Translations under genes and position numbers: made by a program
Notes under the pieces: model-generated
What the model was told of the DNA's origin: nothing
The model's database searches: none
What the model saw: only the letters and a program-made list of their open reading frames with translations
Shown here: positions 9,318 through 44,449 of the stretch, piece by piece
Numbering within the stretch: the first letter of the stretch is position 1
Layout of the letters: the number at the start of each line of letters is the position of its first letter
Virus record (IMG/VR): IMGVR_UViG_3300034198_025067
Span: 1-45,079 of that record
Length of the DNA: 45,079 nt
Source of the DNA: a virus
Reading direction: 5' to 3' (one strand)

Positions 9318-9543
9318 AGAATTTTCTATTTGGTTAGATGGATTTTTGCATAATAAAGAAACACTAAATAAAATGGACATCCTTAGTGTTAGGGAAAAAT
9401 TATCAAAAATAAACGAAGAGGATAATTTTTTTAAGGATAATTTACAAAGATTTAACGAAGGCTTAAAACATAGATTACCGAACATTGTTAACCCCCCAAT
9501 ACCAAGAGCGCCAAACATAATTTGTAAAAAAGATGATAAATAA
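9307..9543 (+). CDS. Conserved-type small protein, unknown
   Basis: A 78-residue helical protein (MNHKEFSIWLDGFLH, then a Pro-rich end PPIPRAP). I chose ATG 9307 over the earlier in-frame ATG at 9268 because the longer form would overlap the zinc-ribbon gene by 50 bases and adds a poor-quality N-terminus. Its 3' end overlaps the SbcD start by 11 bases. Chained overlaps suggest one operon through the recombination genes. Function unknown. Confidence 0.6.
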   Translation: MNHKEFSIWLDGFLHNKETLNKMDILSVREKLSKINEEDNFFKDNLQRFNEGLKHRLPNIVNPPIPRAPNIICKKDDK

Positions 9544-10312
9544 AATCGTACATTTTAGTGATTTACATGTTAGGTTATTTAAAGACCATGACTTGTATAA
9601 GAAAATTTTGAATCAGGCTTTATCTGAATGGAAAGAATTAAATCCTGACAGAATTGTTTTTACAGGAGATATGGTACATTCAAAAAACCAAATGACACCT
9701 GAACTTGTTGAATTTGTGGCGTGGGTTTTAACGGAATGTGCAAAAATAACTAAAACAATTGTCATAATAGGTAACCATGATTTTTTAGAAAACAATATAT
9801 CTCGATTAGATGCGTTAACACCGGTTATTGAGTCTTTAAAAAATGAAAATATTGTATACTACAAAAATAGAGGGGTTTATACTGATTCAAACATTGATTG
9901 GGTTGTGTATTCGTTAGTGGACCACAATATCCCTCCTGATATTGAAAAATCAGAAAACATTAAAATAGGTTTGTTTCACGGACCAATTCAAGGGTTAACT
10001 ACTGATATTGGATATAAATTTGACGAGGGATTTGACACTAATAAATTTAAAGGTTGTGATTTAGTTTTATGTGGTGATATCCACAAACGACAGATTTTTG
10101 ATATACCAAATGGTAAAAAGGCGTATATGATTGGCTCAACAATACAACAAAATTATGGAGAAACAATCCGTAAGCATGGGTATGGTGTATATGACGTTTT
10201 AACCAACACATATGAGTTTGTTGATTTGGAAAATCCTAAACCTTTCTTATCATTTAAGATAGAATCAATTGAGGATTTAGAACATGGCAAAGAAAAACTT
10301 CTTAATTACTGA
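9533..10312 (+). CDS. SbcD/Mre11-like recombination nuclease subunit (gp47-type)
   Basis: The 259-residue protein has the calcineurin-like phosphoesterase signature in order: HFSDLH (D10, H12), VFTGDMVHS, IVIIGNHDFLE, LFHGP, and LCGDIHKRQ. This is the metal-binding set of SbcD/Mre11 and phage gp47. With the SbcC-like ATPase at 11473 it should form a complex that processes double-strand breaks and recombining ends. It is shorter than cellular SbcD and lacks an obvious C-terminal capping domain, as is usual in phages. Three small genes separate it from its partner. Confidence 0.88.
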   Translation: MINKIVHFSDLHVRLFKDHDLYKKILNQALSEWKELNPDRIVFTGDMVHSKNQMTPELVEFVAWVLTECAKITKTIVIIGNHDFLENNISRLDALTPVIESLKNENIVYYKNRGVYTDSNIDWVVYSLVDHNIPPDIEKSENIKIGLFHGPIQGLTTDIGYKFDEGFDTNKFKGCDLVLCGDIHKRQIFDIPNGKKAYMIGSTIQQNYGETIRKHGYGVYDVLTNTYEFVDLENPKPFLSFKIESIEDLEHGKEKLLNY

Positions 10313-11294: not shown

Positions 11295-11504
11295 ATGGGA
11301 AAAAGAGCAAAAGAACACAGAAAAAAAGTTCAGGCAAGAAATGCAAGACTTAAATCAGAATCAAATCGACAAAAAAAGATTTTTGAAAAAGCGATGGAAG
11401 AACAAATCGAATTAATGAAATCTAAAATGTCAGGAGAGACTAAAGAAGAAAGTACAATATCATTAAATACCGATGGATTTATTCAATCCTCCAATATCCT
11501 ATAA
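11295..11504 (+). CDS. Small basic helical protein
   Basis: A 69-residue protein, extremely Lys/Arg-rich at its start (MGKRAKEHRKKVQARNARLK) and predicted helical. ATG 11295 is preferred to an in-frame upstream start at 11244, because it lies four bases after the preceding stop and is followed by this compact basic segment. Charge suggests nucleic-acid or protein binding. It overlaps the SbcC-like gene start by 32 bases. No family recognised. Confidence 0.55.
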   Translation: MGKRAKEHRKKVQARNARLKSESNRQKKIFEKAMEEQIELMKSKMSGETKEESTISLNTDGFIQSSNIL

Positions 11505-13848
11505 TTACACCTATATGAATCATAAAATTCAGGTTGATAAACTCGACAATCCATACGTCCAAGTAGTTTGGGAAGATTATCCTGATAATTTTACTCAAGA
11601 AAGGATTAAGAGTGTAAAACAATATTTCCAAAAAAAGTATCTAACAACTAATGTGAATGTTATCACAAAAGTAAAGTTGGTTGAAGATGATACCATGCAA
11701 ACAGTTGATGTTTCATTTAATATAATGGACAAAAACTATCAATTAGATATGGTTAAATCATTTTTACAATCAAAGAACTATGAAAAATATTCACAAAACG
11801 TTTTAGACCTTGATAATGCTGTTGAAAATAGGATAATTGCGACATCTGATGAAGTTGCCGCGTTTAAGAAATGGTATATTAAAAAAATTGAATTTTCTAA
11901 TTTCCTATCATATGGAGAAAACCAAGTATTGGATTTTGAAAAATGTGGTGGAATTACTGTTGTGGAATCAGACCCACCAAACTTTGGTGGGAAGACGGTA
12001 TTGACCGTTGACCTTTTAATGTTTTTATTTTTTAATACGACAACAAAAACATCAAAGGCCGAGGAAATTTTTAATCGATTTACCACCAAAGATAAAGTTT
12101 CTGTAAGAGGTGAAATTACTATTGATGGTGAAGATTATTTAATTGCAAGAACCATTGAGAGAAAAAAATCTAAATCAGGTGAATGGAACGTTAAGACAGA
12201 ATTAGATTTTTTTAAAAAATTATCAGACGGACAATTACAAAACTTTACCGGTGAACAAAGGAGAGAAACTGAAAAGTTTATTAAAAATTCAATTGGGGAG
12301 CAAGAAGATTTTTTAACGACAATTCTAACTACTGCAACAAATCTTGAAGACTTAATAGAATCAAAACCTACCGCAAGAGGACAAGTTCTTAGTAAATTTT
12401 TAGGATTAGAATTCCTTAAGAAAAAAGAAGAGACTGCAAAAGAGTTGTATTCTGAATTTTCAAAAGGAATGTTGTCTAATGTTTATAATACTGAAAGTTT
12501 AAAACAAGAGATTCAAAACAATGAAAATCAAATTTTAGAATTAGAGAAAGGTATTGAAGAGTCAACTTCAAAGATAGATGAGGTTAGTGTCAGATTAAAT
12601 AAGGGTAAAGAATATAAGGATAATTTGTTGAAATCAAAACATACTGATATCGACCAAGAACTTATAATAATGAATCCTAATAATATTGAGAACGAAATTA
12701 ACTTATTAATTTCTGATAATGAAAAATTACAGAAACAAATCAAAGAAGTAATAGTAATTGAGCCTTCACAATTTTATCATGAAGATGAACATGATAAGAT
12801 AAAAGAAGAGTATAATGAAATTTACAAGAAGAATCTTCAGGTTGAAAATAAGATAGATGAGATTAATGAACTTAAAAGTTCTGTAAATGACGGAATAAAA
12901 TGTGAACATTGTGGTATTGAATTAATTAACGCGGCTATAACCCAAGCTAAGATTTCTGAACTTGATGGTTTGGTTTCTCAAAAAAATCAAAACGAAAGTT
13001 TAATGAAGGAAATATCTACTAAAGAACAATCATTTGTTAAACTTAAAAAAGAATTTGATGAATACGAAAAAAACAAATTGATTAAAGGTAAATTAGAGCT
13101 TAGTTTAGAAAGTAATGAATTAAAAAAGTCTAAACTTGATGATAAGTTAAAAAGATATTTTGATGTCCAAGAAAAGATAAAAAAGAATAATGAAATCGAA
13201 CAACAGGTAATAAAGGCGAACTTGAAGATAGAAGAGTTGGAATCAGAAAAGAAAAAGTATGAAAACACAGTAACTTCTAACAATGTCATGATTAAAAATC
13301 TTAGAGAAAAAATCACTAAGAATCATGAGAACATTACCAAAATTGCGGAAGAGTTTGAAAGAGAAAGAATTTATAAGATATATCTTGAAGTTTTCGGTAA
13401 GAACGGTATAACAAAAATCATTATGAAAACAATGATGCCTTTGATTAATTCTGAATTACAAAGATTGTTACAAGATAGTTCTTATTTTAGGTTAGAAATA
13501 AGAATATCAGATAAAAACGAAGTTGAGTTTTGGATGATAGATAATTCCACAGGAATTGAAAAATTGATGGTATCTGGTTCAGGATATGAAAGAACAATTG
13601 CTTCGTTGGCGTTGAGAGCAGTTTTAAGTAAAGTATGTTCATTACCTAAACCAAATATTATTGTGTTTGATGAAGTCTTTGGTAAAATATCTAATGATAA
13701 TTTAGAAATGGTGTCGGAATTTTTCCAAAAGATTAAAGAATATTTTGAAAAGATATTTGTAATAACACATAATCCATTGGTTAGTAATTGGGCGGATTCA
13801 ATAGTAAAAATTAATAAAGTTGAGAATATTAGTAGAGTCAGTCAATAA
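11473..13848 (+). CDS. SbcC/Rad50-like recombination ATPase (gp46-type)
   Basis: The 791-residue protein has an N-terminal extension of ~135 residues, then the ATPase head (KKIEFSNFLSYGENQVLDF), a Walker A region SDPPNFGGKT (~166-175), two long coiled coils meeting at a zinc hook CEHC (C477, C480), a signature region MVSGSGYERT, Walker B IIVFDEVFG (~728) and an H-loop ITHNP. It pairs with the SbcD-like nuclease to process DNA ends. Oddly, Walker A has Pro in place of the usual first Gly. A second in-frame ATG at 11515 is an alternative start. It ends at a strong terminator. Confidence 0.88.
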   Translation: MDLFNPPISYNYTYMNHKIQVDKLDNPYVQVVWEDYPDNFTQERIKSVKQYFQKKYLTTNVNVITKVKLVEDDTMQTVDVSFNIMDKNYQLDMVKSFLQSKNYEKYSQNVLDLDNAVENRIIATSDEVAAFKKWYIKKIEFSNFLSYGENQVLDFEKCGGITVVESDPPNFGGKTVLTVDLLMFLFFNTTTKTSKAEEIFNRFTTKDKVSVRGEITIDGEDYLIARTIERKKSKSGEWNVKTELDFFKKLSDGQLQNFTGEQRRETEKFIKNSIGEQEDFLTTILTTATNLEDLIESKPTARGQVLSKFLGLEFLKKKEETAKELYSEFSKGMLSNVYNTESLKQEIQNNENQILELEKGIEESTSKIDEVSVRLNKGKEYKDNLLKSKHTDIDQELIIMNPNNIENEINLLISDNEKLQKQIKEVIVIEPSQFYHEDEHDKIKEEYNEIYKKNLQVENKIDEINELKSSVNDGIKCEHCGIELINAAITQAKISELDGLVSQKNQNESLMKEISTKEQSFVKLKKEFDEYEKNKLIKGKLELSLESNELKKSKLDDKLKRYFDVQEKIKKNNEIEQQVIKANLKIEELESEKKKYENTVTSNNVMIKNLREKITKNHENITKIAEEFERERIYKIYLEVFGKNGITKIIMKTMMPLINSELQRLLQDSSYFRLEIRISDKNEVEFWMIDNSTGIEKLMVSGSGYERTIASLALRAVLSKVCSLPKPNIIVFDEVFGKISNDNLEMVSEFFQKIKEYFEKIFVITHNPLVSNWADSIVKINKVENISRVSQ

Positions 13849-13880: not shown

Positions 13881-14585
13881 TTAGAAGTTTTCAGTGTCAT
13901 ATGGTTTAAATACATTTCCTGTTTTAAAACCTACACCTCCTACATAGTTTTCATCGTTTACTTGTTTTGAGTAATATTTCATCATTTTAAGTGCTACCTC
14001 CCTATCAAATTCTCTATCGTCTGTTTCTGGAACCAATATATCTACATATATTGAGCCCCTACCACTTCTAAAAGGTTTTCCATCTTCATATATTTCCATT
14101 ATATCCATTTCATCTAAATCCTCATCATTTTCAATTATGGACTTTAGTTTTTCAATTAAATTCTTCCTTGGGTCGTAGTCATCCTCCTCCTCATCAAAAT
14201 CAAATTGCTCATCCATTAACGCTAAACCTAAATCAGGGTTTTTTTCACTAACCGCTAAAGCAATATCATCTTCTTGTGAAACATCTTCAGACATTTCTGA
14301 ACGACCACTAGCCAAGTCTAAATACTTATACGCTTTTTCTCCGTACATATCCCAAAGTCTTCTAAAGAATAGTCTTGGATTTTTTCTTAGGTATCTAATA
14401 ATATCATCATCAAGTAATGCGGAATAACTACCCATTGACTGTTTAATCTGAGTTTCTCTCGGAGTTTCAGGAATTTCAGGTTCTACAGTAAAAGAAGATG
14501 CGTTTTTCTTTTTTTGTTCGTTGACAGGTATTAAAATTTTTATTACATTTATAAGTTCATCTTCCGACAATAAAATTTTTTTCAT
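13881..14585 (-). CDS. Acidic protein with leader-type N-terminus, unknown
   Basis: The 234-residue protein begins MKKILLSEDELINVIKILI and then NEQ, the kind of short amphipathic leader that recurs in this window before unrelated domains. The middle is strongly acidic (FDFDEEEDDYD), and the C-terminal part is a mixed alpha/beta domain with SGRGSIYVDILVPETDD. It is transcribed against the recombination block and shares its terminator. A virion-internal or capsid-core protein is a plausible but unproven reading. It diverges from the plus-strand gene at 14642. Confidence 0.6.
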   Translation of the reverse strand: MKKILLSEDELINVIKILIPVNEQKKKNASSFTVEPEIPETPRETQIKQSMGSYSALLDDDIIRYLRKNPRLFFRRLWDMYGEKAYKYLDLASGRSEMSEDVSQEDDIALAVSEKNPDLGLALMDEQFDFDEEEDDYDPRKNLIEKLKSIIENDEDLDEMDIMEIYEDGKPFRSGRGSIYVDILVPETDDREFDREVALKMMKYYSKQVNDENYVGGVGFKTGNVFKPYDTENF

Positions 14586-15112: not shown

Positions 15113-15143
15113 TTTGTAGATTAAGAAAAAAAACATATCTTTG
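15113..15143 (+). promoter_or_regulatory. Host-type (Bacteroidota) promoter of sigma operon
   Basis: TTTG at 15113-15116, 19 bases, then TATCTTTG at 15136-15143: again an exact consensus match. It drives the 189-residue gene and, two bases after that, the sigma factor gene. Confidence 0.8.
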
Positions 15144-15164: not shown

Positions 15165-15734
15165 ATGACAAAATATTTCTTTATTGCGTTCGGAGATTTC
15201 AGTGAAAAATCAAAAAAACAATTTGTTCTTGATTCTTTTTTGGAGATTACTAATAGTTGGACGTTGAAGTTCAGAGTACTTCCAAACGCAATCGTGATTC
15301 ATTTCGGTACTAAGTCTGAACTTGATAAAGTTAAAGTTAAAGTTGAAACAACTATGCAAAATTTTAGTAAAGTTTATTTCCTTGTTGAAAATACAGACAA
15401 AAAAGTTTTGTCTATGTTTGGAAATGAATTGGAAGAATTTTTGTATCTTGACGGACAAAAACCAAAAAATGTTATAATTAAAGATAAGGAAGAGAAAAAA
15501 ACACAAGAAACTAAAAAAAGTGATTTTTTTGATGACATACTTGAAAGTTTCGCTAAAATAAAAAAAGATGATGGTGAGATTGAAAACGATGGGTATGATA
15601 AACTCTTAAAAAATTGCACCAAAAACAAAGAAAAAGTTTATAACTTAGACGAAATCCTTGATAAGATTAACGAAAAAGGAATAAATTCACTGACACCTGA
15701 AGAACATAAATATTTAAATAACCTGTCAAACTAA
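15165..15734 (+). CDS. Unknown protein with DUF6576-like C-terminus
   Basis: The 189-residue protein has an N-terminal alpha/beta domain (~1-95), a Lys/Glu linker, and a C-terminal segment DEILDKINEKGINSLTPEEH that closely resembles the short motif found at the C-terminus of Bacteroidota rhomboid-type proteins (DUF6576). In those proteins the motif is thought to mediate contacts rather than catalysis. The stop is one base before the sigma factor start, so the two are translationally linked; a regulatory partnership with the sigma factor is possible but not shown. Confidence 0.65.
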   Translation: MTKYFFIAFGDFSEKSKKQFVLDSFLEITNSWTLKFRVLPNAIVIHFGTKSELDKVKVKVETTMQNFSKVYFLVENTDKKVLSMFGNELEEFLYLDGQKPKNVIIKDKEEKKTQETKKSDFFDDILESFAKIKKDDGEIENDGYDKLLKNCTKNKEKVYNLDEILDKINEKGINSLTPEEHKYLNNLSN

Positions 15735-15735
15735 T

Positions 15736-16533
15736 ATGAAAGAGAAATCACAAATTCCAATAAATCAAGAAGAAATTTATTCCTATCTTAGGGATATTAG
15801 AAAAATTAAAGTAATGACTCCCGAAAGGGAACGAGAGCTATCTGCGATGATGGCATCAAAGGACCTGACACCTGATATAAAAAGAGAGATTGAACAAGAA
15901 ATTGTTGAGGGAAATCTTAGGTTTGTTATAACAGTTGCTAAACAGTATCAGAACCAAGGTTTAGACTTACCTGATTTAATTGCCGAAGGAAACTTAGGAC
16001 TAATCAAAGCGATTAAAAACTTTGATTGGAGTAAAAACCTTAGATTTATCTCTTATGCTGTTTGGTGGGTCAAACAATCAATTTTACAATCACTGAATGA
16101 ACACGCGAGAACAATTCGACTTCCGGTTAATATTGTTCAAGAGATGCAAAGAGAGAAGAAGGCAGTTGATAATGGTGTTGCTGAACTTTCGGAGAAGTTT
16201 GCTAATCTACCATCCATGATATATTTGGATAAAACAATAAATGAGGATGGGGATACTCTTATGGACATCATTTCAAATGATAATGCGGACAGACCTGACA
16301 ATGTATTTGACGGTAAAGAGGTATTGAAGGATAAGTTGATGAAGATATTGAACATTTTAGATGACAGAGAGCGATTAATTATTGAAGATTATTTTGGACT
16401 AATGGGTTCAACAAGAACCTTGGAAGACATTGGAGGAGATTTTAATCTAACCAAAGAAAGGGTAAGACAAATTAAGGAGAAGGCTCTACGAAAATTGAGA
16501 AACGAGTGTTCGGAATTATTTGATTACATCTAA
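15736..16533 (+). CDS. RpoD-like sigma-70 factor
   Basis: The 265-residue protein has region 1.2 (YLRDIRKIKVMTPERERELS), region 2 (EGNLRFVITVAKQYQNQG, PDLIAEGNLGLIKA, FISYAVWWVKQSI, ~58-128) and region 4 (LEDIGGDFNLTKERVRQI, ~225-245). It looks like a captured Bacteroidota primary sigma factor. Region 3 between RLPVN and the DGDTLMDIIS segment is about 45 residues, by my recollection some 20-25 shorter than in Bacteroidota RpoD. It would redirect host RNA polymerase to phage promoters. It is expressed from the host-type promoter at 15113 and followed by a terminator. Confidence 0.9.
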   Translation: MKEKSQIPINQEEIYSYLRDIRKIKVMTPERERELSAMMASKDLTPDIKREIEQEIVEGNLRFVITVAKQYQNQGLDLPDLIAEGNLGLIKAIKNFDWSKNLRFISYAVWWVKQSILQSLNEHARTIRLPVNIVQEMQREKKAVDNGVAELSEKFANLPSMIYLDKTINEDGDTLMDIISNDNADRPDNVFDGKEVLKDKLMKILNILDDRERLIIEDYFGLMGSTRTLEDIGGDFNLTKERVRQIKEKALRKLRNECSELFDYI

Positions 16534-16540
16534 ACATTAA

Positions 16541-16574
16541 AAATGGACTATTTATAATAGTCCATTTATTTTTT
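16541..16574 (+). terminator. Terminator after sigma operon
   Basis: An 11-bp perfect stem (16541-16551 with 16557-16567) closes on a TTATA loop and is followed by a T-rich run. The top of the stem and the loop contain TATTTATA (16549-16556), the same octamer found before several other genes. Confidence 0.85.
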
Positions 16575-16610
16575 ATTGGTATTTTATAAATTTATAAAAA
16601 ACAAATTAAC

Positions 16611-16895: not shown

Positions 16896-17632
16896 TGAAT
16901 TGGTTTCAAAAAAACTTTAAAACAATAATTTATGCGTCCTTTTTAGTTCCAATTTTAACAGTTGCGTTCGTTTCAATTTCGCACGTAACTAAATGGTATG
17001 GAATATCAAACCCACTTAGTTGGGCGATATATCTATCGGTTGGAATTGAAATTGCCGCATTATCGGCATTAGCGGCTATTTCGGCGAGTATGGGGAGAAA
17101 AGTATATTTCCCATTTGGGATTGTTACATTAATACAGTTTATTGGTAACATATTTTTTGCCTATCAGTATATTGATGTTGATAGTCAAATTTTTAAAGAA
17201 TGGGTTAGTTTAGTTGACCCTGTAGTTAGTTATTTAGGTGTTGAATCAGGTGACCCTATTGGGCATAAAAGATTTTTATCTTTATTTGCGGGAGGAATGT
17301 TACCGTTAATATCTTTATCTTTTTTACATATGTTAGTTAAGTTTGAAGAAGAAGATAAGAAAAAAACAACAACAATAGAGACACCAAAAGAAAACATTGA
17401 TATTGACGAGTTGAGTATTTTGGCGGGGAAAAAAGAAGCGGAAATTGATGACGAGAAATATGAACCTTCCGAAGAAGATTTAAAAAATTTAGAAATATAT
17501 TTAAAAAACCTACAAGAACAGAAATTTGGAAAAGAATCTTATGATGAGACCAAAATTGAAAGTGAAGTAGAACAAAATCCTGAACCGACCCAAACAATAA
17601 AGAGACTAAGTTATATCAAAAAGGATGTTTGA
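16895..17632 (+). CDS. Four-helix integral membrane protein
   Basis: The 245-residue protein has four hydrophobic segments (~10-30, 41-66, 71-92, 127-148) and a long acidic, Lys-rich cytoplasmic tail from ~150. I recognise no transporter or enzyme motif. It is coupled to the small membrane protein upstream (TAATG) and overlaps the amidase start by eight bases, which places it in an envelope/lysis operon. It may organise or modify the host membrane, but that is inference. Confidence 0.65.
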   Translation: MNWFQKNFKTIIYASFLVPILTVAFVSISHVTKWYGISNPLSWAIYLSVGIEIAALSALAAISASMGRKVYFPFGIVTLIQFIGNIFFAYQYIDVDSQIFKEWVSLVDPVVSYLGVESGDPIGHKRFLSLFAGGMLPLISLSFLHMLVKFEEEDKKKTTTIETPKENIDIDELSILAGKKEAEIDDEKYEPSEEDLKNLEIYLKNLQEQKFGKESYDETKIESEVEQNPEPTQTIKRLSYIKKDV

Positions 17633-18230
17633 TATCCAAGATTTAACCGGATTTAAATGTGTTGGTGAGCAACAAAGTAAGAAACAAATAATTTTGTCTC
17701 ATACCTCTAGAAATATTTCTGATTATGTAGCATCATTAAGACATAGAAATAATGGCAAATATAATAAAATTCCAAATTTCCTAATTAATAGGAATGGTAT
17801 TATATTTAGATTAATACCTGAAAAATCATATTCAGGTATTTTTTTTGAAGAAAATTTAAATAAAAATTCAATAATAATTTCTTTAGAAAATTTAGGATGG
17901 ATGAATAAAATACCGTTAACCGAAAATTACGTTAACTGGATTGGAGATATTTATAAAGGAGAAGTAGTTGAAAAGAAATGGAGAGATTACTTTTTTTGGC
18001 AACCTTATACTGACGAACAGATGGACTCATGTGTTAATTTGTGTAAGTATCTGATAAAAGAATTCTCCATAAATAAAAAATGTATAGGGCATAATACTAA
18101 ATTAGATGGGGTTGAAAGATTTAATGGAATCGTTTTCAGAAGTAATTTTGACTCAGAATATACAGATTTAAGTCCGGCTTTCAATTATGAAATATTTATT
18201 AAAAAAATAGAAGATGAACAACTCGTATGA
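17625..18230 (+). CDS. N-acetylmuramoyl-L-alanine amidase (Amidase_2), endolysin candidate
   Basis: The 201-residue protein shows the Amidase_2/T7-lysozyme layout: H26 in IILSHTSRN, PNFLINRNGIIFRL (the strand pair after the usual Tyr position, here Asn), ISLENLGW (E88), H156 in CIGHNTK and D181 in TDLSPAF. H26, H156 and D181 are the likely zinc ligands. It would cut the amide bond between muramic acid and peptide during lysis. No signal peptide is seen, so release should need the holin at 19687. It overlaps the next gene by 17 bases. Confidence 0.75.
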   Translation: MFDIQDLTGFKCVGEQQSKKQIILSHTSRNISDYVASLRHRNNGKYNKIPNFLINRNGIIFRLIPEKSYSGIFFEENLNKNSIIISLENLGWMNKIPLTENYVNWIGDIYKGEVVEKKWRDYFFWQPYTDEQMDSCVNLCKYLIKEFSINKKCIGHNTKLDGVERFNGIVFRSNFDSEYTDLSPAFNYEIFIKKIEDEQLV

Positions 18231-18821: not shown

Positions 18822-18829
18822 TATTTATA
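18822..18829 (+). promoter_or_regulatory. TATTTATA motif before papain-like protease
   Basis: TATTTATA ends 10 bases before the start codon at 18840, in an otherwise short AT-rich gap. Candidate phage-specific promoter element, shared with several other genes here; not proven. Confidence 0.35.
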
Positions 18830-18839
18830 GTAAAAAGCC

Positions 18840-19661
18840 ATGGCTAAATCTAAAGAAAATACCAAAAAAACAACTAAAAGTAAGTCAAGCAGTAAATTAA
18901 AACCAAAAAGTGTACAATATTTTGGATGGACACCTGATACCCCTGACCATCGTGATTTAATGTTTGCTCTTCCAGAAAAAATGGAAGACTTACCTAAAAA
19001 GATAGATTTAAGAACTGAAGTTTTACCTGTATTTGACCAAGGAAAATTAGGAAGTTGTACCGCAAATGCAGTTTCAAACGCATTTGCTTTTAGTGTCAAC
19101 AAACAACAACAGGAAAAGTTATACGTACCCTCTCGTTTATTTATTTATTATAATACAAGATTATTAGAAGGTAATGAAGATAGAGATAGTGGAGCGACTC
19201 TTAGAAATACCGTAAAGGCGATGAATAAAGTTGGGGTTTGCGGAGAAGAGTTGTGGCCATATGATATACCTAAATTTACGAATAAGCCAACAAACAATTG
19301 TTATAAGATTGCTAAAGATAATAAAGCGATTAAATATGAGAGATTAAATCGTTCTTTGTACGATTTTAAATCTTGTTTAGCATCAGGATTTCCTTTTGTT
19401 GGAGGTATTGCAGTATACGAAAGTTTCCAATCCAAAGAAGTCTCAAAAACAGGAATAGTTCCTATTCCAGGAAAAGATGAAAAATGTTACGGTGGTCATG
19501 CTATTTTAATAATGGGATATGATGATGAAACTGAACGTTTTATTGTAAGAAATTCTTGGGGAAATAAATGGGGAGACAAAGGGCATTTCTACTTACCATA
19601 TGAATATTTATTAAATAGAAATTTATCCGATGACTTTTGGGTTATACAAATAGTAACATAA
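18840..19661 (+). CDS. Papain-family (C1A) cysteine protease
   Basis: The 273-residue protein has a basic N-terminal tail (KKTTKSKSSSKLK), then WTPDTPDHRD and the peptidase core: oxyanion Gln Q67 and nucleophile C73 in FDQGKLGSCTANAVS, His220 in YGGHAILIMGYDD, and Asn238 in RNSWGNKWGDKGHF. All four catalytic positions are intact. There is no signal peptide and no long inhibitory propeptide. It lies between the amidase/leader genes and the holin. It could mature virion proteins, attack host proteins, or act as a cell-wall peptidase in lysis; the context fits the first and last best. Confidence 0.88.
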   Translation: MAKSKENTKKTTKSKSSSKLKPKSVQYFGWTPDTPDHRDLMFALPEKMEDLPKKIDLRTEVLPVFDQGKLGSCTANAVSNAFAFSVNKQQQEKLYVPSRLFIYYNTRLLEGNEDRDSGATLRNTVKAMNKVGVCGEELWPYDIPKFTNKPTNNCYKIAKDNKAIKYERLNRSLYDFKSCLASGFPFVGGIAVYESFQSKEVSKTGIVPIPGKDEKCYGGHAILIMGYDDETERFIVRNSWGNKWGDKGHFYLPYEYLLNRNLSDDFWVIQIVT

Positions 19662-20478: not shown

Positions 20479-20486
20479 TATTTATA
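20479..20486 (+). promoter_or_regulatory. TATTTATA motif before 20508 gene
   Basis: TATTTATA ends 21 bases before the ATG at 20508. Same octamer as at 18822, 21445, 27362, 36129 and 40721. Confidence 0.35.
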
Positions 20487-20507: not shown

Positions 20508-20753
20508 ATGGCATTAACAAGTTCAGAAAAAAACGAAATAGAAGTATTAATAAGAAAAGAAATTAAAGATTTTCTTGGTAGTAATACTGTTAGACAATTT
20601 GAAGATAAGTTAATTGATGCCGTGGCAAAAGAAATAAAACGTGGAAAACTAGAAGACGATGTTAAAGACATTACTGTGAGAGCATTTAGAGAATTTTATA
20701 ACACTATGTGGAACAACAGAAGCTTTTGGGAATCAAGAATTAAAAATGCATAA
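20508..20753 (+). CDS. Small helical protein, probably virion-associated
   Basis: An 81-residue, highly charged helical protein (SSEKNEIEVLIRKEIKDFL, ending FYNTMWNNRSFWESRIKNA). The N-terminal EIEVLIRKEI stretch is similar in feel to the leaders of neighbouring genes. It stops two bases before the next gene, so it is co-transcribed with two proteins that carry recognisable phage virion motifs. No biochemical role can be assigned. Confidence 0.6.
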   Translation: MALTSSEKNEIEVLIRKEIKDFLGSNTVRQFEDKLIDAVAKEIKRGKLEDDVKDITVRAFREFYNTMWNNRSFWESRIKNA

Positions 20754-21435: not shown

Positions 21436-21452
21436 TATTTATAATATTTATA
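21436..21452 (+). promoter_or_regulatory. Doubled TATTTATA motif before 21467 gene
   Basis: Two TATTTATA octamers (21436-21443 and 21445-21452) lie in tandem; the second ends 14 bases before the ATG at 21467. Confidence 0.38.
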
Positions 21453-21466
21453 TAAAAACATAAGAA

Positions 21467-22978
21467 ATGAAAAAATTTAACATAGAAAATATAGTAAAGA
21501 ATGTTTTAGAGGAATCTTTACAAGAAAAGGCCAACGATTTGACTAATAAAATCAAATCAAAGCTTGAGGAGTGGGAACCTTTTTCATCCCCAACTATATC
21601 GGCTCAATCATCAGACATACATGAGGTTGACGACCAAACATGTCAATACCATAAAGAGAAATTTGGAGAAGATGATGAAAGAACTATGGAAGTTTGTGGA
21701 ACAGGTAAAAGTCAAATGGAAGAATCTTTAAAAGGGGGTCAAAAAAAATTAGATAAAAATAAAAATAAAAAATTAGACTCTGAGGATTTTAAGTTATTAA
21801 GAAAATCTAAAAAAAATATGAAAGAATCTAAACAAGTTTGTTCTGAGTGCGGCTCGGGATATATGGAAGAAGGGGTTTGTAATGAGTGTGGATACGGAAC
21901 TATGGAAGAAAACCATGACTTTGATTTTATTTTCAATGATGAAATTGGAGAACAAGAACAGCAAGAGGGAAATGCATTTACAGGCGCATTAGAAGACGCA
22001 AAGAGAAAACATAAAAAATCATTTGAGGTTGATGGGAAAAAATATCCTGTTAAAGAATCTAAGGAAAAGTGGATACAAGATACCGATATGAAAAAAGGTT
22101 CTTTACATAAATCTTTAGGAGTTCCTGAAGGAGAAAAATTATCTCAATCTAAATTAAAATCTTTGAAAAAAGAATTAATGAATAAAGCTAAAGGTGATAA
22201 GAAATTATCTAAGAGTGATTTAAAACTTTTAAAACAAGTCAATTTGGCTTTAACCTTAAAAGATGTTAAGGAGTCTAATAGTTCTTCATTGTTTGTTACT
22301 GAAAGTGAATTAATAGATTTAATAGAAAGTATTGTTAAGGAACAATCTAAACCAAAAGGATTGGCGGTAACTGATAAAGTTAAAAATGCTGACAAAAAAG
22401 AGAACGATGCATATTTAAAATCGGTTGCAAAAAAAATGAAGGATTACTTAAAAGATGGTTCAAAAGGAGGATACGAAACAAATCCTGTTATGTTTCCAAA
22501 AGGTAATGGTGAGTTGGCTAAGATGAAAAAGATGGCTTATGTACCTGACAATCCAACACAAGAGTATATTGATAATTTTACTGCGGCAGGACAAGAAAAC
22601 TTAGTTTACGATGAAATACATCCAAACGAAGAATGGATGGAGAAGACAATAGAAGGTTCATCTAAAACAGGTAACAACCCAAAATGGGCTAATGCAGTAG
22701 ATACAGGTGTAAACAAAAAGAGAAACAAAATAAGAAAAGATAATTTATTAGGAGCTGTTAAACAAATGGCTTACAATAAAGCACCTCAACCTGTTATTGA
22801 TGATTCTGAATACGGTGTAGTTGGAAAATTTAATAAGAATTTTGGAAAAGGTGCCGGTAAAAAAGCGGCAAAAATCCTAAATCAATTAGAATCAACTGAA
22901 AGTACTGAAAATAATTTAATAAATGAGGAATTTGACAAAATGAAACATTTAATAAATTATAATCAAAAGACACAATAA
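21467..22978 (+). CDS. Multi-module leader protein, probably capsid-associated
   Basis: The 503-residue protein has leader motifs in three places: N-terminus (MKKFNIENIVKNVLEESLQ), middle (VTESELIDLIESIVKEQSK, ~281-299) and extreme C-terminus (EFDKMKHLINYNQKTQ). Between them are an EF-hand-like loop DKNKNKKLDSED (~96-107), a zinc-ribbon pair CSECG/CNECG (~124-140) and a segment MKKGSLHKSLGVPEGEKL. The rest is Lys/Glu-rich and probably extended. It reads like a scaffold-type or internal head protein assembled from recurring modules. A hairpin terminator-like structure follows. Confidence 0.6.
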   Translation: MKKFNIENIVKNVLEESLQEKANDLTNKIKSKLEEWEPFSSPTISAQSSDIHEVDDQTCQYHKEKFGEDDERTMEVCGTGKSQMEESLKGGQKKLDKNKNKKLDSEDFKLLRKSKKNMKESKQVCSECGSGYMEEGVCNECGYGTMEENHDFDFIFNDEIGEQEQQEGNAFTGALEDAKRKHKKSFEVDGKKYPVKESKEKWIQDTDMKKGSLHKSLGVPEGEKLSQSKLKSLKKELMNKAKGDKKLSKSDLKLLKQVNLALTLKDVKESNSSSLFVTESELIDLIESIVKEQSKPKGLAVTDKVKNADKKENDAYLKSVAKKMKDYLKDGSKGGYETNPVMFPKGNGELAKMKKMAYVPDNPTQEYIDNFTAAGQENLVYDEIHPNEEWMEKTIEGSSKTGNNPKWANAVDTGVNKKRNKIRKDNLLGAVKQMAYNKAPQPVIDDSEYGVVGKFNKNFGKGAGKKAAKILNQLESTESTENNLINEEFDKMKHLINYNQKTQ

Positions 22979-26500: not shown

Positions 26501-27340
26501 ATGGCATTATCATACATAGGAGGAAAGTCTAAAATAGGTAAATGGATTGTACCATTTATACCCAACGATATAGAAACGTACGTAGAACCATTTTCAGGTA
26601 TGTTCTGGGTCTTCTTTAACATGGATTTATCCAAGTACCCAAATCTAAACAGAGTTGTTTATAACGACTTTAATCCATTAAATTACAATCTTTATAAATG
26701 TTTACAGAACCCATCAGAATTATTAAACGCAATTAATAATATACCATGCCAGCAGTTTGGTGTGGAAGATACCCCTCCAATTTATAAAGAACAGTTTGTC
26801 AGATTCCAAACAGAAATTTTTAATGAAGGATTTACCTGCAATGTACCTGATTATGAAACTGCCGCAAAGTATGCGTATGTATTAACACAAGTATTTTCAG
26901 GGTCAAAACCTGAAACTAGTTCTTTTATTGACTTGAAGGGTAAATACAAATCAAAATATCTAACTTTCAGAGACAAGTTAAGTAAACAAGACTGGGTTGA
27001 CCACTTTATTAAAATAACACATGTTGAGAATTTAGACTTTCAGGAAGTGATTGAAAAATACGATTCTGAAAAAACCTATTTTTATACTGACCCACCTTAC
27101 TGGAAAACAGAAAATTATTACTCAAATCATGATTTTGATAGAAAAGACCATGAAAGATTGGCAAATAGTTTAAAACCAATAAAAGGTAAGTTTAGTTTAT
27201 CTTATTATGATTTTGAACTTTTACATCAATGGTACCCTGAAACTCAATATCGATGGGAAAAAAAGGAATTTGCTAAAGCCGCTGCAGCAAAAAAAGGTGC
27301 AAAACAAAACATGGGTGAGGAGCTTTTAATAATGAATTAA
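26501..27340 (+). CDS. Dam-type (D12 class) adenine-N6 DNA methyltransferase
   Basis: The 279-residue protein starts ALSYIGGKSKIGKWI, has the SAM-binding motif VEPFSGMFWV (~29-38, a variant of the usual F-x-G-x-G) and the catalytic DPPYW (~197-201). Order and spacing match the D12/Dam class. It would methylate adenines in a short target, probably protecting phage DNA from host restriction or marking it for replication. No partner endonuclease gene is nearby. It has its own host-type promoter, consistent with early expression. Confidence 0.88.
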   Translation: MALSYIGGKSKIGKWIVPFIPNDIETYVEPFSGMFWVFFNMDLSKYPNLNRVVYNDFNPLNYNLYKCLQNPSELLNAINNIPCQQFGVEDTPPIYKEQFVRFQTEIFNEGFTCNVPDYETAAKYAYVLTQVFSGSKPETSSFIDLKGKYKSKYLTFRDKLSKQDWVDHFIKITHVENLDFQEVIEKYDSEKTYFYTDPPYWKTENYYSNHDFDRKDHERLANSLKPIKGKFSLSYYDFELLHQWYPETQYRWEKKEFAKAAAAKKGAKQNMGEELLIMN

Positions 27341-27361: not shown

Positions 27362-27369
27362 TATTTATA
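27362..27369 (+). promoter_or_regulatory. TATTTATA motif before 27384 gene
   Basis: TATTTATA ends 14 bases before the ATG at 27384, the same spacing as at the 21467 gene. Confidence 0.38.
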
Positions 27370-27383
27370 AAGAAAAATATAGT

Positions 27384-28775
27384 ATGAAATTAACTAATAC
27401 ATTACAAGAGATAATACTTGAAGATTCAAGATTAGATGTCTTTATAGAAAAATATTCAAAACCTAAAAAGGATAAAAAGACCGGTAAAGTAATTAAACCG
27501 CAAATTCCTGTTGAGATTTTGGCTCAAATAATATTAGCAGACCCGACTACAAGAAAACCTGAAGGGTTTGATGAAACCGATTTAAGCGAAGAAAATACAT
27601 CACAAATTCAACCGGGTGGGTATTCGTTTTGGTTAATCAAAAACTATGTTACTCCTGGAAAATTTAATGATGAAAGAGATGATGTCCAATATGGAACAAA
27701 AGAATATGACCGAATGATATCTGAATATCGTAATTTATATTTGGAAGATTTATTTAAAGTTACCGGTGATTTGGTTAAATTTTCCAAATATAAGCAATAT
27801 TTTCCTGTAGAATTAAGAGATATAAGTAGATTCACACCTGATAGTTTGTTTAAGTATTTACAAGAATTTAAATTACCTGAGAAAAAACAAAAAGAATTAG
27901 AAAAGAATGAACTTAAAAAAGAAATTAGAAAAGAAAGAAAAGGATATTCTCACCCTGGGGCTACTGTTGAATTTACAGGAAGTGATTGGACGGTTATAAA
28001 AATATCAGATATCGGTCCTAAAGGACAAGAAGCGGCAAGTTGGTATGGGGGATATTACGATTATGATGCTGGAGAGTCTAGATGGTGTACATCACCTCCA
28101 AATTCAAGTTATTTTAAAGGGTATGTAAAAGATGGGCCTTTATATGTCATCTTATCTAATGATGAGTCAGGACCTGTTGGTAAAAGGACAGGATTACCAC
28201 AAAAAAGATATCAATTCCATTTTCCATCAAATCAGTTTATGGACAGACTTGATAGTAGAATTGATTTAGTAGATTTTTTAAATGGCCAAGCGTCTGAATT
28301 AAAAGACTATTTTAAACCTGAATTTGCAAAAGGAATGGTGACAGGAGATGGTAAAAAAGTTGAAATTGAATACCCAAGTAGTTCCGCGTCAAAGTTTATT
28401 GCGTTGTATGGGTTTGAAGAATTTTTTAATAGTTTACCTGATAATATAACAAACTTGTTATTTAATAATAAATCTAGTGAAACCATAGCATTAGATGTTC
28501 CACCATCTTTAGGACGATTCAAAGGACTACAAGCATTATTGTTAATGAATTGTGTTAGAAGTTTACCACAAGAAATCAGCCAACTTACATCTTTATCATT
28601 TTTGGCATTACCTGACAATCCGAAATTAAAAGAAGTTCCAGATTCAGTTTTAAAATTACCTTCATTAATGTTTATTAATTTAAAAGGTAGTAAACCAAAA
28701 CTATCAAACGAATTTTTAGAAGTTTTTAAAGAAGAAGGTGCAAAAAATAGCGGATTTTACACAAAAAAGTTTTAA
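27384..28775 (+). CDS. Leader protein with WC-type domain and leucine-rich repeats
   Basis: The 463-residue protein has a leader-type start (MKLTNTLQEIILEDSRLDVF), a helical N-terminal region, then a beta domain with SRWCTSPP (~232-239), DGPLYVIL and YQFHFPSNQFMDRLD. The C-terminal ~100 residues are leucine-rich repeats (LQALLLMNCVRSLPQEISQL). The WC/LYV/YQ layout is analogous to the NC/LIV/YQ layout of the PcfJ-like protein at 29948. LRRs usually bind proteins. A TATTTATA motif precedes the gene. Function not known; a virion-delivered effector or structural protein is possible. Confidence 0.6.
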   Translation: MKLTNTLQEIILEDSRLDVFIEKYSKPKKDKKTGKVIKPQIPVEILAQIILADPTTRKPEGFDETDLSEENTSQIQPGGYSFWLIKNYVTPGKFNDERDDVQYGTKEYDRMISEYRNLYLEDLFKVTGDLVKFSKYKQYFPVELRDISRFTPDSLFKYLQEFKLPEKKQKELEKNELKKEIRKERKGYSHPGATVEFTGSDWTVIKISDIGPKGQEAASWYGGYYDYDAGESRWCTSPPNSSYFKGYVKDGPLYVILSNDESGPVGKRTGLPQKRYQFHFPSNQFMDRLDSRIDLVDFLNGQASELKDYFKPEFAKGMVTGDGKKVEIEYPSSSASKFIALYGFEEFFNSLPDNITNLLFNNKSSETIALDVPPSLGRFKGLQALLLMNCVRSLPQEISQLTSLSFLALPDNPKLKEVPDSVLKLPSLMFINLKGSKPKLSNEFLEVFKEEGAKNSGFYTKKF

Positions 28776-33114: not shown

Positions 33115-33929
33115 AAAATAGTTAAATCAATCGGGTTTTTATCTTTAACCAACCAAGGCTTATCTTCGGTTGGTTTTTTTATGTCATCACAAAAATCATA
33201 AGACTTAAGTTTAGATTTGAATTTGTTAAAATCAAAATCAAAAATATCTAAAACCATTGATTTAATAAAGTCAGTCGGAACCATTGATTCCATCTTTATA
33301 TCAAATATTTGTTCACCATCATCATTTTTTTTGTCTGATATGAATATGTCCATTTTCTCGGATGAAGAGGTTTTAATTATTTGATTTGCGATATATTCAG
33401 AATAATAAAACAATAATCTACCAATAGATAAACTATATCCATGAGGAAACTCAGAGGTTAATTGTATCGGAGATATATTAAACTTTGATGGGATAACAAC
33501 TGAATTATAATCCAACTCAAATACGATATCATTATCGTAATCTAGTGAAATAAACTCTAATCCTGTGTTTGAATATTTTTCTATAACATTTTGATGATAT
33601 ATTGGTCTTGAAGAATTGTAAAAAGTTGACCAAAGATATCTGTGATTACTATTTGTGATTTTTTTATTATACTGAATTAAATCCATAATACTAAAGTTAT
33701 CGGTGTAACCAACTTCATTCAATAATGATTGATATTCAGAAATAAATTTGTCTTTAATGTTATGTAATTCTAAAATTTGCGTTGACTCTGTAATGCCATT
33801 AACAATAATAAAATGATTAAAATCAGTAACTTGTATTATTGTATTAAAAGATGGGTCTACGTTATTTAGGATATAGTCGGCAAATAAATTTACAATGCCT
33901 TTCTTAGTTTTTAAATTGATTAATTTCAT
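33111..33929 (-). CDS. Unknown protein, first of the minus-strand island
   Basis: The 272-residue protein (MKLINLKTKKGIVNLFADYI) has an alternating strand/helix pattern and ends DKPWLVKDKNPIDLTIF. A segment SLSIGRLLFYYSEYIANQII might be a conserved core, but no family is certain. It is the downstream-most gene of a minus-strand set and is separated from the metallopeptidase gene by 59 AT-rich bases. Function unknown. Confidence 0.6.
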   Translation of the reverse strand: MKLINLKTKKGIVNLFADYILNNVDPSFNTIIQVTDFNHFIIVNGITESTQILELHNIKDKFISEYQSLLNEVGYTDNFSIMDLIQYNKKITNSNHRYLWSTFYNSSRPIYHQNVIEKYSNTGLEFISLDYDNDIVFELDYNSVVIPSKFNISPIQLTSEFPHGYSLSIGRLLFYYSEYIANQIIKTSSSEKMDIFISDKKNDDGEQIFDIKMESMVPTDFIKSMVLDIFDFDFNKFKSKLKSYDFCDDIKKPTEDKPWLVKDKNPIDLTIF

Positions 33930-33988
33930 ATTTTATTCTTTTTATAAAAGATAAAAAAATGAAATTACATCTTAAATAGTAAAAAAAA

Positions 33989-34804
33989 TTATTTAATAAA
34001 TTCTTTTATCTCTTGAGCCGCGGCATAAAACATATTTAAAAATCTTTTCCAATTTTCAGGACTATATTTTTTAATTAAAGATAAAGTTTCTAAATAGTCT
34101 AAATCTTCATCAGAGTTTTTAATAAAATGTGTTAATTCAGGAAAATTCAAAATCATATGTTTTATTGGTTTTCCTACACCAACAGATAAATCACCACCAA
34201 ATGAGTCCGAAATAATATCTTTTGATAATGGGGTCAAAGGTTCATTTACCGCAAAATAATTTAAAATATTATCTAAAGAGTCATTCAGTGCCGTAATACT
34301 TTTAGGATTTGATAAACGTTTTCTCCTGTATTTAAACTCATTCATAATTCCTTCAATAAATTCATTTGAAAAAGCTCTAAACTCGGATTCATGTCCGTAA
34401 TAACTTTCATCATTTTCAGGGTCATATTTTTCCCAATAACTTTCAGTTGATTTAGTACTGAAATTTGGGTCTGTGGCGTGCATTATTTCATGATATAAAG
34501 TTTGATATAGATTTCTTTTACTACTAACCATAGTTGGATTTACAGTAATTATAAAATCATTAGGGTCCCAAGTCTCATTTTTAGAGTATAGTTCACCATA
34601 AGCGTCAAGATTAGGGTCTACAACTATTTCAACAAAACCTGGAGTACCATCCGCTACCATTATAGGAATTGTTGTTATAGGGGTTTTTTTCTTAAATGAT
34701 TTTCTTTTTTTAAAAACCATATCAACCACATTGTTTAAAACAGTTATAAATTCATCCGGTAACTTTACCCTTTTAGATTCTTTAAGTATATCAATTAATT
34801 TCAT
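33989..34804 (-). CDS. HExxH metallopeptidase-like protein with leader
   Basis: The 271-residue protein starts with a leader-type segment (MKLIDILKESKRVKL) and contains the zinc motif HEIMH (H105, E106, H109) in TLYHEIMHATDPN, with acidic candidates for the third ligand about 30 residues on (GHESEFRAFSNEF, E139/E141). This is the arrangement of a zincin protease. The C-terminal 120 residues are helical. It overlaps the stop of the upstream gene by one base. It might process virion or host proteins; the target is unknown. Confidence 0.7.
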   Translation of the reverse strand: MKLIDILKESKRVKLPDEFITVLNNVVDMVFKKRKSFKKKTPITTIPIMVADGTPGFVEIVVDPNLDAYGELYSKNETWDPNDFIITVNPTMVSSKRNLYQTLYHEIMHATDPNFSTKSTESYWEKYDPENDESYYGHESEFRAFSNEFIEGIMNEFKYRRKRLSNPKSITALNDSLDNILNYFAVNEPLTPLSKDIISDSFGGDLSVGVGKPIKHMILNFPELTHFIKNSDEDLDYLETLSLIKKYSPENWKRFLNMFYAAAQEIKEFIK

Positions 34805-39425: not shown

Positions 39426-39842
39426 ATGAAAAAAATAATTTTAACACTATCCTTTGTACTCTTGTCAATATTATCATATTGCCAAAATGGATTAGGAACC
39501 TCGGTAAGAGACGTGAGACAACTATTGATTAATGATGGGTATATTAAAACTGAAGGGTATACCGATAAAGGAGTGTTTTACATTATCGGTCATGATAACA
39601 CTTCTTTAAGAATCTTTTATTTCAATTATAATAATGTTTGTGAGTTATATGTTTTTTCAATTAAAGGGGCGACTTATGATGATTACGAGAGAGGTTTGTT
39701 TGATAACAGTTATGTAAGGATGGGGAGTAAGTATTATTCGGAAGAATATGTTGCCGAGATTGTCTATGACAATGAATATAACATATACTTAACAAAAATT
39801 AATTTTAAAACAAAAAAGGACAACTATGGAAAAACTAATTAA
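39426..39842 (+). CDS. Small exported protein
   Basis: A 138-residue protein with a signal peptide (MKKIILTLSFVLLSILSYC; cleavage most likely just before QNGLGT; the Cys at 19 also gives a possible lipobox LSYC). The mature domain is alpha/beta with SVRDVRQLLINDGYIKTEGY. It overlaps the methylase gene by 17 bases. Second exported phage protein in the window; perhaps an envelope modifier. Confidence 0.62.
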   Translation: MKKIILTLSFVLLSILSYCQNGLGTSVRDVRQLLINDGYIKTEGYTDKGVFYIIGHDNTSLRIFYFNYNNVCELYVFSIKGATYDDYERGLFDNSYVRMGSKYYSEEYVAEIVYDNEYNIYLTKINFKTKKDNYGKTN

Positions 39843-40683
39843 TACCATTGTAAATGGAGATTCGTTAGAAGTTATGAAAACTATGCCAGAATCTTCAATA
39901 GATTTGATGGTAACTAGTCCAAGATATAATGTGGGGATTGACTACGACTCCTGTGACGATAAATCCTCAATGGAGGATTATTGGTCTTGGACAAAAGATT
40001 GGTTAACTGAAGTTTACCGATTATTAAAAGATGACGGTCGGGTTGCGATTAATATCCCATATGAAATTAATGTACAAGATAGAGGTGGTAGAGTTTTATT
40101 TATGGCGGAATTTTGGGCGGTTATGAAATCGGTTGGGTATAAATTTTTTGGGTTAGTTGATTTAAATGAAAACTCACCACATAGAAGTAAAACAACAGCA
40201 TGGGGAAGTTGGATGTCTCCTTCATCACCTTATATCTACAATCCAAAAGAATGTGTAATCCTTGCTTATAAGAAAAGCCCAAAGAAAATTGTTAAAGGAG
40301 AACCTCAATGGGTCGGTGTAATTGATGAAATTTTGCAAGAAGATGGAACAAAGAAAAAGAAAACTTTGTATGCTGAAGAAGATAAGAAAGAGTTTATGGA
40401 GTTAGTTTATGGGGAGTGGGACTATTTTGCAGACACAAAGCAAATGACCAAAGCCACATTCTCAATGGATATTCCGGCTAAGGCAATTAAAATTTTGAGT
40501 TACAAAAATGATATAGTGTTAGACCCATTTGCCGGCTCAGGAACAAGTTGTGTTGCGGCAGAAGTACTTGACCGAAGATGGATAGGTATTGAACTATCTG
40601 AAAGATACGCAGAAGTGGCCAGAAAAAGAGTCCAAGGGTTTGTAAATCAAAAACAACAATTAAAATTAGAAATGTCAGTATAA
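39826..40683 (+). CDS. DNA methyltransferase (N4/N6, beta-type order) with altered motif IV
   Basis: The 285-residue protein has the order catalytic motif then SAM motif: NGDSLEVMKTMP, LMVTSPRYNVGID (S31-P-R-Y34) and DPFAGSGTSCVAAEVL (~233), ending in WIGIELSERYAEVA. This is the layout of beta-class amino-methyltransferases. The catalytic motif is normally SPPY or DPPY; here the second Pro is Arg (AGA codon at 39922-39924). It may be a natural variant or an inactive enzyme. No cognate nuclease is adjacent. A terminator follows immediately. Confidence 0.85.
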   Translation: MEKLINTIVNGDSLEVMKTMPESSIDLMVTSPRYNVGIDYDSCDDKSSMEDYWSWTKDWLTEVYRLLKDDGRVAINIPYEINVQDRGGRVLFMAEFWAVMKSVGYKFFGLVDLNENSPHRSKTTAWGSWMSPSSPYIYNPKECVILAYKKSPKKIVKGEPQWVGVIDEILQEDGTKKKKTLYAEEDKKEFMELVYGEWDYFADTKQMTKATFSMDIPAKAIKILSYKNDIVLDPFAGSGTSCVAAEVLDRRWIGIELSERYAEVARKRVQGFVNQKQQLKLEMSV

Positions 40684-40720: not shown

Positions 40721-40728
40721 TATTTATA
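40721..40728 (+). promoter_or_regulatory. TATTTATA motif before 40745 gene
   Basis: TATTTATA ends 16 bases before the ATG at 40745, directly after a terminator, so a new transcript must start here. Confidence 0.42.
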
Positions 40729-40744
40729 ATAAAAAACTAATAAC

Positions 40745-41134
40745 ATGAAAAGAAAAGCAATAATTTCAGAACTTGAAAGAAATAATATTTTAGGTTTACA
40801 TGAATCCAAAAAAGTCAAAAAAATTAATATTCTTGAGCAAACCGAAAATGCTAATTTTAACAAAGCCATACAAAGTTTCTTAAATGAAAAAGGTATCACG
40901 GATGATAATAATCAAAAATTAGTTGTTGATGGTAGTATAGGTAATTACCCTGCTTCTAAATCCGCTCAAGCAATTGTCAAATACCAACAAAGTATTAATG
41001 CAGATGCTAACGGAGTTTGGGATGGGGATATTAGGAATCACATGCCTGAAAAAGACAAAGAATTATTTAAAGATAAAATTTCTGAACAAGGAGACCTTTA
41101 TGATAAATTCTTGCATTGGATAGGGATGGACTAA
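40745..41134 (+). CDS. Leader protein with peptidoglycan-binding-like domain
   Basis: The 129-residue protein starts with a leader, SELERNNILGLHES then INILEQ (residues ~7-32), followed by a domain resembling PG_binding_1: FNKAIQSFLNEKGI, VVDGSIGNYPASKSAQAIVKYQQ and DANGVWDGDIRNH. Such domains dock enzymes to cell wall. A second SEQ site (KISEQGD) comes near the C-terminus. It begins right after a terminator and a TATTTATA motif, and leads into the DHH gene three bases after its stop. Probably virion- or lysis-associated. Confidence 0.65.
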   Translation: MKRKAIISELERNNILGLHESKKVKKINILEQTENANFNKAIQSFLNEKGITDDNNQKLVVDGSIGNYPASKSAQAIVKYQQSINADANGVWDGDIRNHMPEKDKELFKDKISEQGDLYDKFLHWIGMD

Positions 41135-44351: not shown

Positions 44352-44425
44352 AGTCAGATAGCTCAATTGGTTAGAGCACTCGCCTGATACGCGAACGGTT
44401 ACAGGTTCGATTCCTGTTCTGACTA
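44352..44425 (+). tRNA. tRNA-Ile(GAU)
   Basis: A complete cloverleaf: acceptor AGTCAGA/TCTGACT with discriminator A, D stem GCTC/GAGC, anticodon loop CTGATAC with GAT at 44386-44388, T stem ACAGG/CCTGT with TTCGATT loop. The 3' CCA is not encoded. The outermost anticodon-stem pair is a C-A mismatch (44379 and 44395). It reads AUU and AUC. Confidence 0.95.
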
Positions 44426-44449
44426 CAAAAAATAAAAAAAAACTAAATT

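Follow-up and report, generated by a model that had tools for sequence, protein, structure and literature searches.

A plan with two phage sigma factors, one RpoD-like and one gp55-like, is known in outline from jumbo phages. In phage CBB, an RpoD-like factor (CBB_513) is encoded among the early genes, the gp55-like factor is CBB_244, gp33 and gp45 were undetected, and the promoters fall into early, divergent (RpoD-like middle) and late sets (PMC5259590). The group-2 jumbo phages, like those studied here, are gp23-type phages coding for minimal and RpoD-like sigma factors; unlike here, region-3 loss is not described for them in the part of that account drawn on (PMC7824862). In T4, gp55 is encoded near the gp46/47 genes, lacks most of sigma-3 as well as region 4, and needs gp33 and the clamp gp45. 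Bacteroidota promoters have the form TTTG/TAHHTTTG, with a weak -33 element in F. johnsoniae (PMC6847099). A 2015 survey found Far-T4 phages to be widespread in freshwater and reported no T4-like transcription-regulation genes in them (PMC4360716).

The window, which is the whole 45,079-nucleotide stretch analyzed here, is a 45-kb viral fragment that encodes an RpoD-like sigma factor, P0001 (Table 1). Its phage group resembles CBB as a T4-superfamily jumbo phage with a predicted early RpoD-like sigma factor, a gp55-like sigma candidate, and structural genes preceded by a late motif. In contrast, the CBB sigma factor was reported with regions 2, 3, and 4, CBB infects a different host phylum, and its late motif is ATAAATA rather than TATTTATA. 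P0001 shares with T4 gp55 the absence of most of sigma-3 and a position near gp46/47-type genes in a phage genome, but it keeps region 4. The new elements are the partner gene, a sigma-3.1 deletion that is fixed, and, for Far-T4 phages, a candidate late sigma factor with a late promoter, TATTTATA, which a cultured Flavobacterium phage has as well. Together with the natural loss of sigma-3.1 from an RpoD-like sigma factor, they make it possible to test how such phages reprogram the polymerase of Bacteroidota and which functions depend on sigma-3.1.

TABLE 1 Coordinates of features in the window and in related phage records
Feature	Record	Position	Strand	Basis or context
Sigma-70 family factor P0001, 265 aa	Window	15736-16533	+	ORF call, Pfam, alignments
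Sigma region 2, residues 57-125	Window	15904-16110	+	Pfam PF04542 (above cut-off, 2e-16), alignment
Shortened region 3, residues 133-170, 38 aa (host, 60)	Window	16132-16245	+	Alignments
Sigma region 4, residues 205-256, recognition helix TKERVRQIKEKALRKL	Window	16348-16503	+	Pfam PF04545 (above cut-off, 1e-14), alignment
C-terminal tail SELFDYI, conserved acidic/aromatic	Window	16510-16530	+	Relatives, RpoD alignment
Partner gene, 189 aa, C-terminal DUF6576-type segment	Window	15165-15734	+	Ends 1 nt before sigma gene; in 79/79 relatives
Host-type promoter TTTG-N19-TATCTTTG of partner-sigma cassette	Window	15113-15143	+	Motif search; TTTG 15113-15116, TATCTTTG 15136-15143, 21 nt to partner ATG
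gp47-like nuclease gene	Window	9533-10312	+	Upstream of sigma gene
gp46-like nuclease gene	Window	11473-13848	+	Upstream of sigma gene
Terminator-like hairpin ATGGACTAT-TTATA-ATAGTCCAT with T-rich tail	Window	16543-16577	+	Sequence; 3' of sigma gene
Late motif TATTTATA	Window	18822-18829	+	Before ORF 18840-19661
Late motif	Window	20479-20486	+	Before ORF 20508-20753
Late motif	Window	21445-21452	+	Before ORF 21467-22978
Late motif	Window	27362-27369	+	Before ORF 27384-28775
Late motif	Window	40721-40728	+	Before ORF 40745-41134
gp55-like candidate late sigma	G003	33738-34496	-	Near baseplate/virion genes
gp55-like candidate late sigma	G012	257680-258429	+	Near baseplate/virion genes
gp55-like candidate, annotated hypothetical	Immuto NC_055915	78174-78872		E 1e-15; near baseplate/virion genes

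An RpoD-type sigma factor with a shortened region 3

ORFs were called simply as the longest ORFs with ATG starts, which placed P0001 exactly where the initial annotation had it, at 15736-16533. Pfam recognized regions 2 and 4 (Table 1); region 1.2 scored just below its cut-off, and there was no region-3 Pfam match in P0001. The NCBIfam sigma-70 superfamily model, TIGR02937, gave 103.4 bits (cut-off, 42.9), and the RpoD equivalog model, TIGR02393, gave 178.6 bits (cut-off, 354). Regions 1.2, 2, and 4 aligned end to end with the Bacteroidota primary sigma factor (sigma-ABfr/RpoD), and region 1.1 is missing from both. Region 2.4 (WWVKQSILQSL in P0001) and the 4.2 recognition helix are nearly the same as in host RpoD, with conservative changes only, such as R to K. 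As initially proposed, regions 2 and 4 are RpoD-like and of the Bacteroidota kind. On these matches, we consider P0001 to be a sigma-70 factor of the Bacteroidota RpoD type, one that has regions 2 and 4 of a Group 1 (RpoD) factor and lacks its complete sigma-3 domain.

In the alignment with Bacteroidota RpoD, the stretch from RLP[LV]N to DG[DG]TL spans 38 residues in P0001; the nearest RpoD of Flavobacteriales (L196) has 60. The initial annotation had rightly called this stretch short, although its estimate of about 45 residues was too high. The net 22 residues gone correspond to the helix-turn-helix of sigma-3.1 (around RPPSAEELAEALEVPEDKIKESL); P0001 retains the beginning of the region-3.0 helix together with most of the 3.2 linker. 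P0001 differs from host RpoD also by a 6-residue insertion behind region 1.2 and by an acidic C-terminal tail, ELFDYI, in place of the basic KLLKSYLG type. Two AlphaFold runs gave pLDDT values of 55.6 and 70.9; the second reached a TM score of 0.35-0.39 to sigma-A chains with unreliable domain placement, and therefore the structure carries no claim on region 3.

Relatives of P0001 are encoded at 360 places in viral contigs. The best 80 of these 360 are about 69-80% identical to P0001 and nearly all equally long, with a total length of 266 aa in 77. Among 20 aligned viral relatives, the RLPVN-DGDTL stretch showed no length change, and the region 3.2 segment, 2.4, and 4.2 are strongly conserved throughout the phage family. 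Judged from these alignments, the sigma-3.1 loss is fixed among the viral relatives. Most of the other phage-record sigma factors compared are not shortened in region 3; in L358, an uncultured 462-kb phage, region 3 also looks short.

A genome scan identified RpoD, mostly of Bacteroidota and allied phyla, as the closest cellular relative (~39-44% tblastn identity). In a tree, the phage sigma factors formed one clade on a long branch whose attachment point was not placed; therefore, of the initial description as a captured RpoD, the relatedness to Bacteroidota RpoD stands, and capture from a host is plausible but not proved. Long relatives of the window reach ~320 kb. The gp23-type major capsid protein (PF07068) is present in 8 of them and not in the window, a fragment, and Flavobacterium phage immuto and Rhodothermus phage RM378 are among the phages with the nearest annotated capsids. 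These affinities identify the window contig as a piece of a Far-T4 (gp23-type) phage of Bacteroidota.

A conserved gene pair behind a host-type promoter

A partner ORF of 170 to 190 aa lies directly upstream of the sigma gene in all relatives checked, mostly with a gap of 2-10 nt. The partner gene evolves fast; in the window, its DUF6576-type C-terminal segment is LDEILDKINEKGINSLTPEE. Anti-sigma factor and co-activator are possible candidate roles for its product. The cassette stands behind a host-type promoter, as the initial annotation had claimed: such a promoter was found within 1.5 kb upstream of the sigma gene in 55 of 77 relatives, compared with 7 on the antisense strand. Farther upstream stand primase, exonuclease, gp47-like, and gp46-like genes. 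A copy of TATTTATA at 16549 sits within the terminator-like hairpin downstream; this is a coincidence of stem and loop and not a promoter.

Full host-type promoters exceeded expectation in G012 (56 observed and 22 expected), in the window (8 and 3.4), in G003, and in the relatives combined (235 and 113, a pooled count that overstates independence because homologous sites are common to relatives). In the long relatives G003 and G012, they stand before the primase gene, the partner-sigma cassette, and a large number of small ORFs. In phages with the sigma factor, the spacer is sharply 19 bp; in G012 alone, 28 promoters had a spacer of 19, 12 of 20, and 4 of 21. In 60 Flavobacteriales genomes, the mode was likewise 19, with 401 hits at 19 (135 in controls) and 210 at 20 (112 in controls), as summed by hand from columns. 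Since the phage and Flavobacteriales modes are the same, the suggestion in the initial annotation that the region 3 loss alters spacing rules is unsupported. An altered phage spacer had seemed a candidate with a small host set around rpoD, which gave a 20-bp mode; larger sets gave 19. An extended -7 G at -4 was also discarded as a phage peculiarity, the host having the same G.

A second promoter class before virion genes

In the relatives, sense-strand copies of TATTTATA are concentrated at -24 to -21 relative to the ATG, and the reverse complement shows no such peak, which bears out the earlier observation of a distinct motif before late-type genes. There was no conserved -33 element at the TATTTATA sites of relatives. 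In G003 and G012, the motif stands in front of genes for the prohead protease, the scaffold, the hub, and head completion and of very long tail genes; small ORFs and a DnaB-like gene have it as well. The phage genomes thus hold two promoter classes, one of host-type promoters at early/replication genes and one of TATTTATA sites at virion genes, ~22 nt upstream.

Many late-motif genes encode a similar protein N terminus, e.g., MKKKIIKLTESDLRNIVMRIMNEQ and MAKRFIITEEEKGDIL; examples are 13881-14585 (minus strand), 21467-22978, and 40745-41134 in the window and 64008-64478 and 70844-71152 in G012. By analogy with T4 internal proteins, this N terminus could be a capsid-targeting peptide. An Amidase_2 gene (17625-18230) is followed, one ORF on, by a papain-family cysteine protease gene (18840-19661) with a late motif.

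A gp55-like candidate for the late sigma factor

G003 and G012 encode a gp55-like protein of 249-252 aa (Table 1). Every sigma-bearing contig of at least 215 kb that we checked also encodes this protein; the window has no such gene, as expected of a fragment, and what we say of the protein is drawn from relatives. It matched PHROG 234, "late sigma," with an E value of 5e-4, and its best PDB sequence match was T4 gp55, weakly (E value, 0.06); aligned with T4 gp55 alone, hhalign gave a probability of 9.7%. We regard it as a candidate remote homologue of T4 gp55, akin to its sigma-2 domain, and a candidate late sigma factor of Far-T4 Bacteroidota phages.

Phage immuto provides a comparison, as its genome encodes a gp55-like candidate and no RpoD-like truncated sigma factor. 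Its genes for terminase, portal, sheath, tube, hub, tape measure, and PhoH have TATTTATA-type sites upstream. Since immuto combines the late motif and the gp55-like protein without an RpoD-like sigma factor, TATTTATA goes with the gp55-like protein, which most likely reads it, to judge from this co-occurrence. This tells against the initial idea that P0001 is the switch to the late motif, as the gp55-like protein is what immuto shares with the window's relatives. Host-like early promoters, AGTTG-N20-TATMTTTAG, are likewise present in immuto, whose genome has no such sigma factor, so that a host sigma factor can serve them unaided. We had considered immuto as a phage without host-type promoters, TAnnTTTG being absent, and rejected this in view of those early regions. 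At 60-77 kb of NC_055915, AGTTG-N20-TATMTTTAGGTATCAATAATTAAAA is common to many small ORFs and is apparently a repeated early promoter plus leader.

We also set aside P0001 as a gp55 counterpart with a clamp-binding tail. Its tail, SELFDYI (compare the clamp-binding SLDFLYE type), is conserved but occurs in no other protein of the phages, there is a separate gp55-like gene, and no gp45 relative was found; the gp45 family, PF02916, had no match in 21 records in a search without a positive control.

Proposed assignment of sigma factors to promoter classes

Because its DNA-contact residues are host-like, P0001 most likely serves host-type promoters. On balance, the reading that we favor is that P0001 is an early-made RpoD-type sigma factor for this class and that the gp55-like protein makes the late switch. 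P0001 would be made early from its host-type promoter, together with the conserved partner, would bind the host core polymerase, and would direct it to the promoter class of the host sigma factor, TTTG-N19-TAHHTTTG, used for phage early/replication genes. Its likely purpose would be to keep host-type promoters served, or favored over the host's, once the host sigma factor is limiting or disabled. The switch to TATTTATA promoters would fall to the second phage protein, the putative gp55 homologue, whose gene is grouped with those for the virion. We infer this pairing, its timing, and its purpose from sequence. The link between sigma factor and promoter class is not exclusive, with immuto a single comparison, and the host sigma factor alone may read the host-type promoters. 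A more specific version is tentative: P0001 and its constant, fast-evolving partner might form a phage-run cassette that seizes host -33/-7 promoters while the gp55-like sigma factor runs the late genes, with the eroded sigma-3 making initiation need the partner or a strict -33 element.

We consider it unlikely that P0001 reads a third, middle promoter class, perhaps with the partner as co-activator or anti-sigma factor. The constant partner would fit, as would a conserved ACTTCACAAGTTTT site before one small-gene family and the example of CBB, where RpoD-like, divergent RpoD-like, and late classes occur beside RpoD-like and gp55-like sigma factors (PMC5259590). However, when upstream regions free of late and host-type sites were searched for motifs, G012 yielded little more than the shuffled controls, and G003 together with the window yielded nothing; we discarded a third motif class.

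It is more doubtful still that P0001 itself reads TATTTATA and is the late switch, the sigma-3.1 loss relaxing the need for an upstream element. The late motif does lack a conserved -33 element, TATATTTATA looks like the -7 element of the host, TAHHTTTG, except that its G is replaced, and the sigma gene has gp46/47-like genes in its neighborhood, like gp55 of T4. Against this, the same motif occurs in immuto, RM378 has a related motif, TATTTAAA, and an annotated sigma factor that matches neither family model, the DNA-contact residues of P0001 are host-like, and the gp55-like protein is available instead. That P0001 is mainly a decoy, which binds core, competes with the host sigma factor, and shuts down host transcription while itself making weak use of promoters, would fit the missing promoter- and core-contacting module and the altered, family-conserved tail, but is very improbable given that regions 3.2, 2.4, and 4.2 are strongly conserved, as in a working initiation factor.

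Upstream of one small gene family (71-74 aa ORFs), a conserved CTTCACAAGTTTT lies shortly before TATATTTAT; this arrangement occurs on the minus strand in L024, L025, L028, L031, L032, and L037, and CTTCACAAGTTTT is possibly an activator box. Other genes of the window include tRNA-Ile(GAT) (44352-44426) and two DNA methyltransferases (26501-27340 and 39826-40683).
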